From Methanocaldococcus villosus KIN24-T80 (GTDB taxonomy: Archaea > AGJL01 > Methanococci > Methanococcales > Methanocaldococcaceae), in contig NZ_AQUK01000001.1 of NCBI RefSeq assembly GCF_000371805.1, positions 248,001 through 312,000 of the forward strand: 64,000 nucleotides of DNA, written 5' to 3'. Position numbers and translations under genes: made by a program. The notes below the pieces were generated by a model. That model was not told the DNA's origin. It searched no databases and saw only the letters and a program-made list of their open reading frames with translations. Positions 9,480 to 61,422 of this stretch are shown here, in pieces. The stretch's first letter is position 1, and every line of letters begins with the position of its first letter.

Positions 9480-10046
9480 ATGGAGCAGAGAATAGATTGC
9501 CCTGTTTGTGGAGCTAAGAATAGTTTTGTTATTATCACTAATCAATTTGAAATTCCATATTTTGGCCCTGTTTTAGAAACTACTATGATATGTGAAAAAT
9601 GCAACTTTAAAAGAAGTGATGTTTTTCCATTAGAGGTTAGGGAGCCTAAAAGATATAAATTAACTATAAAAGATGAAAGAGATTTATGCAAAAGGGTTGT
9701 TAGAAGCTCTTCAGGATATATAGAAATTCCTGAGCTTGGAGTGGAAATTACTCCTGGACCATTAGCTGAAGGGTTTGTAAGTAATGTTGAAGGGGTTTTG
9801 GAGAGAGTAAATAATATATTAGATACACTATACAGATGGGCAGATTCAGAAGAACAGAAAAAAAGAATAGAAGAAATAAAAGAAAAAATAAAAAGAATAA
9901 AAGAAGGAAAAGAAAAAGCTACATTAATACTAACTGATCCATTAGGGCATAGTGCTATTATTGGAGAAGGTGTTGAGGAAGAAACTTTATCTGAAGAGGA
10001 AATCAATAAGTTAAAAGAAGGAATTATTATTGAGAAAAAATTATAA
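9480..10046 (+). CDS. ZPR1 zinc-finger domain protein
   Basis: The 188-residue protein has the ZPR1 zinc finger CPVC...CEKC (residues about 7-41) and the following ZPR1 beta-barrel features FPLEVREPKRYKLTI, SSSGYIEIPELGVEITPGPLAEGFVSNVEGVL. Archaeal proteins carry a single copy of the module duplicated in eukaryotic ZPR1, which acts with translation factor eEF1A. A coiled-coil, Lys/Glu-rich region (about 118-145) precedes a C-terminal beta segment. AGGTGA precedes the start, inside the end of the upstream mini-gene. Confidence 0.9.
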   Translation: MEQRIDCPVCGAKNSFVIITNQFEIPYFGPVLETTMICEKCNFKRSDVFPLEVREPKRYKLTIKDERDLCKRVVRSSSGYIEIPELGVEITPGPLAEGFVSNVEGVLERVNNILDTLYRWADSEEQKKRIEEIKEKIKRIKEGKEKATLILTDPLGHSAIIGEGVEEETLSEEEINKLKEGIIIEKKL

Positions 10047-10053
10047 AAATTTA

Positions 10054-10116
10054 AAATGGCTCAGATCGGGTAAGTATCATCATACGTCAGATAACCCTCT
10101 TTTCATCATCGCCACT
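10054..10116 (-). ncRNA. C/D-box guide sRNA aimed at two 23S rRNA sites
   Basis: Read on the minus strand, this stretch has all four boxes in order: box C ATGATGA (10103-10109), a 12-nt guide, D' CTGA (10087-10090), a 3-nt spacer, C' ATGATGA (10077-10083), a 12-nt guide, and D CTGA (10061-10064). The flanks AAAGTGGC and GCCATTTT form a closing stem. The D' guide complements 23S bases 29830-29840 and the D guide complements 29860-29869 in this window. By the N+5 rule the predicted 2'-O-methyl sites are C29834 (equivalent to E. coli C1920) and G29863 (about G1949). It lies convergently between the ZPR1 stop and the next gene. Confidence 0.9.
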
Positions 10117-10177
10117 TTTATTTATTAAATATATTATGGTTTTATTTTTTGTGTTTTTAAAATTAATTGTGATCAAA

Positions 10178-26074: not shown

Positions 26075-27562
<1,488 letters not shown>

Positions 27563-27570
27563 GAGAAAAA

Positions 27571-27617
27571 AGCTGGTTGCTGCAGGGCACTAAAAACCAG
27601 TCGTGGGCTTGCCTCAG
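27571..27617 (+). other. Pre-16S processing stem, 3' arm
   Basis: Complementary to 25992-26036: AGCTGGTTGCTGCAGGG, then CACT plus an A-rich bulge (27592-27595), then CCAGTCGTGGGCTTGCC and TCAG. It completes the bulge-helix-bulge for 16S excision. Confidence 0.85.
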
Positions 27618-27625
27618 AAGGATGT

Positions 27626-27701
27626 GGGCCCGTAGCTCAGCTGGGAGAGCGCCGGCCTTGCAAGCCGGAGGCCGAGGGTTCAAATCCCTCCGGGTCCACC
27701 A
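27626..27701 (+). tRNA. tRNA-Ala (anticodon TGC)
   Basis: It sits in the 16S-23S spacer, the standard archaeal position. Acceptor GGGCCCG pairs with CGGGTCC, giving the G3-U70 alanine identity pair; the anticodon loop CTTGCAA has anticodon TGC. The 3' CCA is encoded. No intron. Confidence 0.98.
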
Positions 27702-27764
27702 AATTATTTTTTTATGCAGCCCACAACTCATTAGGGTTGTGGGTGAAGGGCTCGATATAGATGA

Positions 27765-27818
27765 GAGCCGCGCATAGGTCCCCATCCTTAAGGTGAAATC
27801 TGGACACCTTACCGAGCC
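27765..27818 (+). other. Pre-23S processing stem, 5' arm
   Basis: Complementary to 30808-30860 across the 23S gene. GGTG (27792-27795) pairs with CACC (30828-30831) and is flanked by an AAA bulge on each strand, a canonical bulge-helix-bulge cut site. Confidence 0.87.
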
Positions 27819-30807
<2,989 letters not shown>

Positions 30808-30860
30808 GGCTCGGTAAGGTGTCCAGACACCAAATAAGGATGGGGACCTATGCGCGGCTC
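30808..30860 (+). other. Pre-23S processing stem, 3' arm; no 5S follows
   Basis: GGCTCGGTAAGGTGTCCAGA, then CACC-AAA, then TAAGGATGGGGACC and TATGCGCGGCTC pair with the upstream arm. After 30860 the sequence turns AT-rich (30861-30961) with no 5S rRNA or tRNA, so transcription of this operon probably ends here. Confidence 0.85.
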
Positions 30861-45538: not shown

Positions 45539-45802
45539 GTTTGAATCGCTTATCCATTAAAACAAGGATGGAAACTTTTTAGCCATATGCAGTAATTCAG
45601 CCAACATTGTTGGGTTTGAATCGCTTATCCATTAAAACAAGGATGGAAACACTCTTAGCACATCTCCAGAGTAGGGGAATATCTCCCCGTTTGAATCGCT
45701 TATCCATTAAAACAAGGTATGGAAACAGTTATTAGTGCATTCGAATATTTCGATAGTCCCAAGTCGTTTGAATCGCTCATCCATTAAAACAAGGATGGAA
45801 AC
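45539..45802 (+). CRISPR. CRISPR array 1 (4 repeats, 3 spacers)
   Basis: Repeats at 45539-45575, 45614-45650, 45689-45726 and 45766-45802 start GTTTGAATCGCT and end GGATGGAAAC (37 bp). The third has an extra T (GGTATGG, 38 bp) and the fourth reads GCTCATCC instead of GCTTATCC. Spacers are 38, 38 and 39 bp. The leader is on the left, so transcription is rightward, converging on cas3 whose stop is 30 bp beyond. Confidence 0.97.
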
Positions 45803-58906: not shown

Positions 58907-60588
58907 GATATCCCAAAGTTTTTAAGTTTTTCATAGAAGTCCTTACCTTTAATAAAATAACAGTCAGGCCCTCTTTCAAATGTTAGAATATCCCCCTTAT
59001 TTATCTCTCCTTCTACATTTCCATCAACAACAACTAAAGCAGGTTTATCTACTAGAAGCTCTATTTTTATTTTATTTAAAATAGAAACAACCATTGGTCT
59101 TGATGAGAGCTTAAAAGGACATATTGGAGAGATAATAAAGCATTCAACACTAGGTTCAACTATAGGTCCTCCAGCACTTAAAGAATATGCTGTTGATCCA
59201 TTTGGTGAGGCTACAATTATTCCATCAGCTCTGACATGTTCAACAAGTTTATCATTTATATATATGTTAAACTCTAACATTTTAGCTGGATGTTTTGTTA
59301 TAACCACTACCTCATTCAATGCTGGAGATGTTTTTTTATTATTGTTTATTTTACACTGAACTCTTGATTTTATTTCTATTTCATAATCTCCTTCTATAAT
59401 CATATTTATAGCTTTAAATATATCTTTTTTATTAAAATTAGCTAAAAAACCTACATTACCCATGTTTATTGAAAGTATTGGTATAGGATTATCACCAACA
59501 ATTCTAGCAGCTTTTAATATTGTCCCATCCCCTCCTATAGCTATGATGTGAGAAACCTTACTAATGTCAAATTCTTTTCCTCCAACTTCATCTTTTAGAA
59601 AACTTTCAACATAATAAGGGATGTTTCTTTCTTTTAAATAATTACAAACCTTTTTTGCTAATTCTATAGCAGACTTTTTATCTTCTCTAACAACTATTCC
59701 AAATGATATAGGCTTTATAACCCATTTATTTCCAAATAAAGCTATTAATTTTTTATGCAAATGTTTATTACTAACAATTAATGATGTTTTTGAAAATAAA
59801 TCAATCTTCAAATTTAAAGGTTTCCCATTTTTATCTGTTACAATAGCGTTAGCCTCTTTACATATTATATACCCAGCAGCTATATCACAGAGTCTTGAGT
59901 TATTATTGATATTTACATATGCATCAAGTGCATTGTTGGCTACAAAACACAATTCTAAAGCTGTTGATCCAAATAATCTTATTCTCCTAGCCCTTCTCTC
60001 TTTTAGAAATTCTAAAAGACCATTATTAGATAATCCATAAGGAGATAGTCCAATAGTAGCTTCCTTTAATTTTTTAACTTTACTAACATATAATCTCTTT
60101 TTTTGATTTTCACTTTTTAAATAACATCCTTCTCCTTTAATAGCATAATATATTTCCCCAGTAGCAAGGTTTTTAACAACTCCTAATTTGATATCATCAA
60201 TAGTGTAATGATTTTTTATAAAATTGCCTAATTCTTCCTTATTTAAATTTTCTAATGTTTCTTTATGCTCATTTTTTATTTTAATTATTGCTATAGATGT
60301 TGAGTATAGAGGAATGGATTTTAAAGCATTATATGTTCCATCAATAGGATCTAAAATGTAGATATAATTAAAGTTGTTAAATATTTCTAATCCTATTTCT
60401 TCACTAATTAATACACCACCAAATTTTTTTAGTACATTTATTGCTATATTCTCAGCAATTATATCAATTCTCCTTGTTGGAGTTCCATCAGCACCAATTT
60501 TAACAATTTCTTCTGCCTTTTCCCATCCAATTAATGGCTTTATTTTCTTATCTATTTCATTAACTACTTTTAAAGCAATATCTAACAT
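58903..60588 (-). CDS. Bifunctional NADP phosphatase (IMPase-like) / NAD kinase
   Basis: The 561-residue fusion has an N-terminal IMPase/FBPase domain (VLISEEIG, DPIDGTYNALKSIPLY, LCDIAAGYIICKEA, about 1-265) and a C-terminal NAD kinase (AIGGDGTILKAAR, NMGNVGFLANF, ADGIIVASPNGSTAYSLSAGGPIVEPS). The characterised methanogen orthologue both makes and removes the 2'-phosphate of NADP, so one polypeptide sets NAD/NADP balance. ATG 60588 follows GTGATAATT. The gene's promoter region runs up to CRISPR leader 2. Confidence 0.93.
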   Translation of the reverse strand: MLDIALKVVNEIDKKIKPLIGWEKAEEIVKIGADGTPTRRIDIIAENIAINVLKKFGGVLISEEIGLEIFNNFNYIYILDPIDGTYNALKSIPLYSTSIAIIKIKNEHKETLENLNKEELGNFIKNHYTIDDIKLGVVKNLATGEIYYAIKGEGCYLKSENQKKRLYVSKVKKLKEATIGLSPYGLSNNGLLEFLKERRARRIRLFGSTALELCFVANNALDAYVNINNNSRLCDIAAGYIICKEANAIVTDKNGKPLNLKIDLFSKTSLIVSNKHLHKKLIALFGNKWVIKPISFGIVVREDKKSAIELAKKVCNYLKERNIPYYVESFLKDEVGGKEFDISKVSHIIAIGGDGTILKAARIVGDNPIPILSINMGNVGFLANFNKKDIFKAINMIIEGDYEIEIKSRVQCKINNNKKTSPALNEVVVITKHPAKMLEFNIYINDKLVEHVRADGIIVASPNGSTAYSLSAGGPIVEPSVECFIISPICPFKLSSRPMVVSILNKIKIELLVDKPALVVVDGNVEGEINKGDILTFERGPDCYFIKGKDFYEKLKNFGIS

Positions 60589-61005: not shown

Positions 61006-61422
61006 GTTTGAATCGCTCATCCATTAAAACAAGGATGGAAACCCTACATCATTAAAATTAATCGTATACAACCTTTTACTGCCAAACGTTTGAATCGCTT
61101 ATCCATTAAAACAAGGATGGAAACATGTTTATGTCAATATACAATATAATAACCGCTTTTTGTTTGAATCGCTTATCCATTAAAACAAGGATGGAAACAT
61201 GTTTATGTCAATATACAATATAATAACCGCTTTTTGTTTGAATCGCTTATCCATTAAAACAAGGATGGAAACTATATGTTCTTTCCAAGATTCCTTCTTG
61301 TGCTAAGCGGTTTGAATCGCTTATCCATTAAAACAAGGATGGAAACTATATCTGTTTTATCACAGTTATTAGCTGTATAGATATTGTTTGAATCGCTCAT
61401 CCATTAAAACAAGGATGGAAAC
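61006..61422 (+). CRISPR. CRISPR array 2 (6 repeats, 5 spacers)
   Basis: Repeats start at 61006, 61088, 61162, 61236, 61310 and 61386, all 37 bp, the same as array 1. The first and last read GCTCATCC, the middle four GCTTATCC. Spacers are 45, 37, 37, 37 and 39 bp; spacers 2 and 3 are identical. The array is rightward and sits between the NAD kinase fusion and ilvC. Confidence 0.97.
61125..61272 (+). repeat. Tandem duplicated spacer-repeat unit
   Basis: The 74-bp unit of spacer plus repeat at 61125-61198 is repeated exactly at 61199-61272, including the 37-bp spacer. This points to recombination or slippage within the array rather than two separate acquisitions. Confidence 0.9.

Follow-up and report, generated by a model that had tools for sequence, protein, structure and literature searches.

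A double-guide C/D box sRNA of Methanocaldococcus villosus with predicted 2'-O-methylation sites around helices 69 and 71 of 23S rRNA

We describe here a C/D box sRNA gene, encoded on the minus strand of the 64-kb stretch of DNA that we analysed (hereafter, the window), which very probably acts as a double guide directing 2'-O-methylation of two neighbouring nucleotides of 23S rRNA, C29834 and G29863. We take these residues to be E. coli C1920 and G1949, respectively, as counted from the helix 69 (H69) loop (U1915, U1917). Transcription, RNP assembly, methylation and any chaperone role of this RNA are proposed by analogy with what is established for archaeal C/D RNPs.

Locus and box architecture of the sRNA

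Read on the minus strand from position 10118 to 10053, the elements of the gene follow one another in the order AAAGTGGC-GATGATGA-AAAGAGGGTTAT-CTGA-CGT-ATGATGA-TACTTACCCGAT-CTGA-GCCATTTT, with two guides of 12 nt each and a 3-nt linker (CGT) between the D' and C' boxes (Table 1). All four boxes, C, D', C' and D, are exact (4/4). Specifically, the C (RUGAUGA) and D (CUGA) boxes lie near the two ends, which pair over 8 bp to form the closing stem, while the internal C' and D' boxes are found at the archaeal spacing (~12-nt guides). The predicted fold has an energy of -16.6 kcal/mol (z -2.65), and a scan with the four-box grammar returned the sRNA as the single match in the whole 64 kb. The original prediction of four exact boxes and a closing stem is confirmed by the sequence, and the stem was in addition found to covary across genomes. 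The interval first proposed, 10054-10116, is slightly too short, the stem reaching a few bases further. The same genome encodes fibrillarin and Nop5, with profile matches of 320 and 235 bits, respectively.

Table 1. Elements of the sRNA gene and its predicted 23S rRNA targets, in window coordinates (WC, Watson-Crick pairs)
Feature	Position	Strand	Basis
Whole C/D box sRNA gene, including the extended closing stem	10053..10118	-	sequence, Rfam, fold, orthologues
Closing stem, 5' strand AAAGTGGC	10111..10118	-	innermost pairs exchanged on both sides
C box GATGATGA	10103..10110	-	sequence, Rfam alignment
D' guide AAAGAGGGTTAT, target 23S C29834	10091..10102	-	11 WC pairs
D' box CTGA	10087..10090	-	sequence, four-box scan
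C' box ATGATGA	10077..10083	-	sequence, four-box scan
D guide TACTTACCCGAT, target 23S G29863	10065..10076	-	10 WC + 1 GU
D box CTGA	10061..10064	-	sequence, four-box scan
Closing stem, 3' strand GCCATTTT	10053..10060	-	pairs with 10118-10111
D' guide target in 23S rRNA (loop and 3' strand of H69), with a predicted Cm at C29834	29830..29840	+	11 WC
D guide target in 23S rRNA (region of H71), with a predicted Gm at G29863	29859..29869	+	10 WC + 1 GU

The sRNA overlaps neither of the flanking genes, both of which lie on the plus strand: a ZPR1-like gene (PF22794, 79.5 bits) ends before it, at 10046, and a YdjM-family gene (PF04307) starts on its other flank, at 10136 or 10178. The tail-to-tail arrangement with the ZPR1-like gene is found in 13 of the 14 genomes of the genus, which points to an old locus, fixed in the genus. 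A TATA-like stretch precedes the sRNA in several species; a sigma-70 promoter scan was set aside as not meaningful in an archaeon. Elsewhere, the window carries a complete 16S-tRNA-23S operon (26075-30818), as well as two CRISPR repeat arrays of one Rfam class (CRISPR-DR7, RF01320), at 45539-45802 and 61006-61422.

Rfam matched the sRNA as sR3 (RF01133), at 47.3 bits against a gathering score of 41. This score would favour membership of the sR3 family and guidance to the sR3 sites, and length and box layout are shared with sR3. However, the alignment covers the boxes only, and the two RNAs differ in both guides: the sR3 guides, acAaCGGGUCUg and CCGUUGGAGCa, find no match here, so that the guides expected of an sR3 member are not conserved. 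In addition, the guides of the sRNA have no better rRNA target than H69 and H71. We therefore regard sR3 membership as very unlikely and, because the alignment rests on boxes and not on guides, use sR3 as a class label only. The sR3 model also has two weak matches of C/D-like character elsewhere in the genome (G000:C1:346881-346932 and 58938-58990).

In conclusion, judged on its sequence, the element at 10053-10118 is a canonical archaeal double-guide C/D box sRNA.

Predicted targets in 23S rRNA and conservation of the guides

Both guides were scanned against the 16S and 23S rRNAs of the window, with Watson-Crick pairing required at the N+5 position. The best targets were 29830-29840 for the D' guide and 29859-29869 for the D guide, with Watson-Crick pairs at N+5 falling on C29834 and G29863; the runner-up sites reached 7 and 8 pairs, respectively. 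Among random 12-nt guides paired at N+5, at least 11 WC pairs were obtained in about 0.1% of trials and at least 10 in about 1%. When random guides were taken in pairs, none of 3000 had both targets at most 100 nt apart at 9 or more WC pairs. A second copy of the 23S gene in the genome is identical across the 201-nt H69-H71 segment.

The D' guide had been predicted to contact the H69 loop and to address the residue that TlyA methylates in bacteria. Both points are borne out, since this guide finds its best rRNA match there and its predicted methyl site corresponds to C1920. For the D guide, the proposed site G29863 also holds, and its place can be refined to the region of H71, 29 nt on the 3' side of C29834. 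All together, the earlier reading of boxes, stem, guides, predicted sites and TlyA residue is supported, at the level of sequence comparison.

Among the 36 genomes sampled from the phylum, 33 carry an orthologue of the sRNA, and the three without one are incomplete assemblies (81, 64 and 54% complete). From N+3 to N+11 the D' guide shows no variation in the 33 genomes, while at N+2 32 genomes have A and the remaining one has G, which can still pair. Likewise, the D guide is invariant from N+2 to N+11 in all 26 genomes that retain it, and the Watson-Crick pair at N+5 is kept throughout, by the D' guide (33/33) as well as by the D guide (26/26). In the orthologue alignment, N+1, N+12 and the linker show free variation. 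Archaeal C/D RNPs use a guide-target duplex of about 10 bp, and selection acting on such a duplex would be expected to hold the pairing positions constant and to leave the rest of the guide free, as is the case here. In part, the invariance of the guides mirrors that of a highly conserved rRNA target: the orthologous 23S segment could be read in 24 genomes, all of which have the same D' target sequence (a 79%-identical 23S match in one genome, G002 (L150), was excluded as a likely contaminant). A search of another archaeal order (that of G042) gave matches in 0 of 57.

The closing stem varies in sequence and stays largely paired. Across 30 distinct stem sequences, its two innermost pairs exchange C-G for U-A and G-C for A-U and are paired in 30/30, and pair 4 occurs as U-A, G-C, A-U or G-U. 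Over five stem positions, 141 of 150 cells are paired; 2000 shuffles, which ignore relatedness, averaged 103 and never exceeded 123. As read from this alignment, the changes in the stem are compensatory, the exchanges on both sides being plain.

These data bear on whether the gene could be silent, or whether four short motifs could have come together by chance in an AT-rich intergenic stretch. The box motifs are indeed short, but the sRNA is conserved in 33 genomes with a covarying stem and invariant guide cores, the joint match of the two guides was never reached among the random pairs, and the four-box match is the only one in the window. We thus consider a silent or fortuitous element highly improbable, and retain the double guide.

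Loss of the D guide in a genus of the sister family

The 23S target and the guides were compared in one genus of the sister family, which we guess from its place there to be the mesophilic genus Methanococcus, and for which seven genomes were available, six of them with a readable 23S gene. In all six, GTCGGGCAAGT replaces GTCGGGTAAGT in the 23S rRNA, a U29865-to-C change within the D target, and the D' target is unchanged. All seven genomes lack the D guide and retain the D' guide. The sequences found at the place of the D guide, for example TATCTTTCAGAAG and TTACACCTATA, are without a good rRNA target. U29865 is present in all 18 genomes that carry the D guide and have a readable 23S gene. 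Guide and target match go together, and the loss probably represents one evolutionary event, because it concerns a single clade.

In one genome of this genus (G022, L156 1440-1580), the D' box is degraded to CTAA and the C' box is degraded too, while the D' guide and the closing stem are intact. This orthologue is apparently a decaying or single-k-turn form.

As for the mechanism, L7Ae would bind the k-turns formed by the C/D and C'/D' boxes, and Nop5 and fibrillarin would then join. The two guide arms would base-pair with the helix 69 and helix 71 surroundings in 23S rRNA, and in each duplex fibrillarin would 2'-O-methylate the target nucleotide that pairs with the fifth guide position upstream of the D or D' box, namely C29834 (C1920) through the D' arm and G29863 (G1949) through the D arm. 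The simultaneous hold on both segments may also aid the local folding of domain IV.

The last step raises the alternative that the sRNA is mainly a folding chaperone, for which pairing with H69 and H71 is what counts, at least one of the two methyl groups being incidental or absent. The two sites lie close together, both in the interface domain, and a chaperone role has been proposed for double guides bridging rRNA segments in a study on archaeal C/D sRNAs (PMC4644070). Against this stand the N+5 position, Watson-Crick paired in every genome, and the sister-family genus just described, where only the D' guide is kept and bridging is not the conserved feature. We consider a mainly chaperone RNA improbable. 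A chaperone contribution beside guided methylation is possible, and is not needed to explain the data, since those genomes keep a single guide.

Predicted routes to position 1920 and relation to known C/D sRNAs

The exact sequence of the D' guide, followed by a D box, recurs in Thermococcales as the D guide of sR34 (RF01273; 76 bits). By exact pattern, with variants disallowed, it occurs in at least 8 of 81 sampled genomes of this order (that of L111). The sR34 D guide of Thermococcales/Pyrococcus, CAAGAGGGTTAG, makes 10 WC pairs with the same segment, at the site equivalent to C1920, and the H69 target in Thermococcales 23S rRNA is identical to that of our D' guide. However, the C1920 guide belongs to the D side in sR34 and to the D' side in the sRNA at 10053-10118. 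The partner guides differ too: that of sR34 has its best match in 16S rRNA, and ours points to G1949 in the H71 region. RF01273 was not among the Rfam hits, and the sRNA was not assigned to sR34. So the two RNAs appear to share a site, the RNA itself being either rearranged or independent.

D' guides to the C1920 site were also found in a Thermoplasmatota MAG (L114) and an archaeal MAG (L112), both assemblies without rRNA of their own. The C/D sRNA of the former (L114:3580-3635) is near Rfam sR41, with 50.7 bits against a cut-off of 54, and its D guide has a 16S match near window position 27179. A bacterial match (L115) showed the pattern without C' and D boxes, and was taken as chance. Among these putative guide RNAs, the guide to position 1920 thus varies both in its placement and in the partner guide that accompanies it. 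The H69 modifications listed for haloarchaeal 23S rRNA are Gm1909, Psi1915 and Psi1917, with Cm1920 absent (PMC2584109), which indicates that the site is not universal among archaea.

In bacteria, Cm1920 affects the H69-h44 bridge and capreomycin binding. The bacterial protein TlyA 2'-O-methylates C1920 (PMC12805891), and the chloroplast equivalent of this residue is Cm1935 (PMC8053127). TlyA and our sRNA would thus share the target nucleotide and, as predicted for the sRNA, the modification, while differing in that TlyA is a stand-alone protein with no RNA guide. In a search of 41 genomes of relatives, no TlyA (TIGR00478) scored over the cut-off, the best match reaching 44 bits against 185.8. 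We tentatively suggest, at somewhat less than even likelihood, that Cm1920 in H69 is convergent: bacteria would make it with TlyA, and several archaeal lineages with C/D guides that are unrelated to one another or rearranged (the D' guide in Methanococcales, the sR34 D guide in Thermococcales, the D' guides of the two MAGs). On this tentative reading, C1920 would be the more strongly kept site here, outlasting the partner guide in the related genus.

The sRNA was further compared with archaeal double-guide C/D sRNAs as described in the study mentioned above (PMC4644070). It shares with them the four boxes, guides directed within 100 nt of rRNA, the N+5 rule and a location in the H68-71 region of domain IV, a hotspot of 2'-O-methylation in archaea, and no structural difference emerges against that description. 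It had been pointed out that one RNA would mark two close sites. This is not unusual: 262 of 489 archaeal C/D sRNAs, about half, are double guides with targets within 100 nt, according to the same study. The sRNA is an ordinary double guide of this well-known class, possibly already catalogued; seven C/D sRNAs are expressed in M. maripaludis, a member of this order (PMC4644070), and an orthologue is likely among them. In the literature, supplementary tables aside, we found no paper naming this sRNA or reporting Cm1920 in an archaeon. RiboMeth-seq on Methanococcales is mentioned, as data not shown, in PMC7758197.

The interest of the sRNA lies in a predicted RNA-guided Cm1920 and in the co-loss of its partner site. 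It predicts that an archaeon would obtain Cm1920 by an RNA-guided route. The genus of the sister family offers a natural experiment, in which guide and target match of the second site were lost jointly and the first pair was kept. A site-by-site test would be feasible in Methanococcus, with its very small known set of C/D sRNAs (seven in M. maripaludis, PMC4644070).
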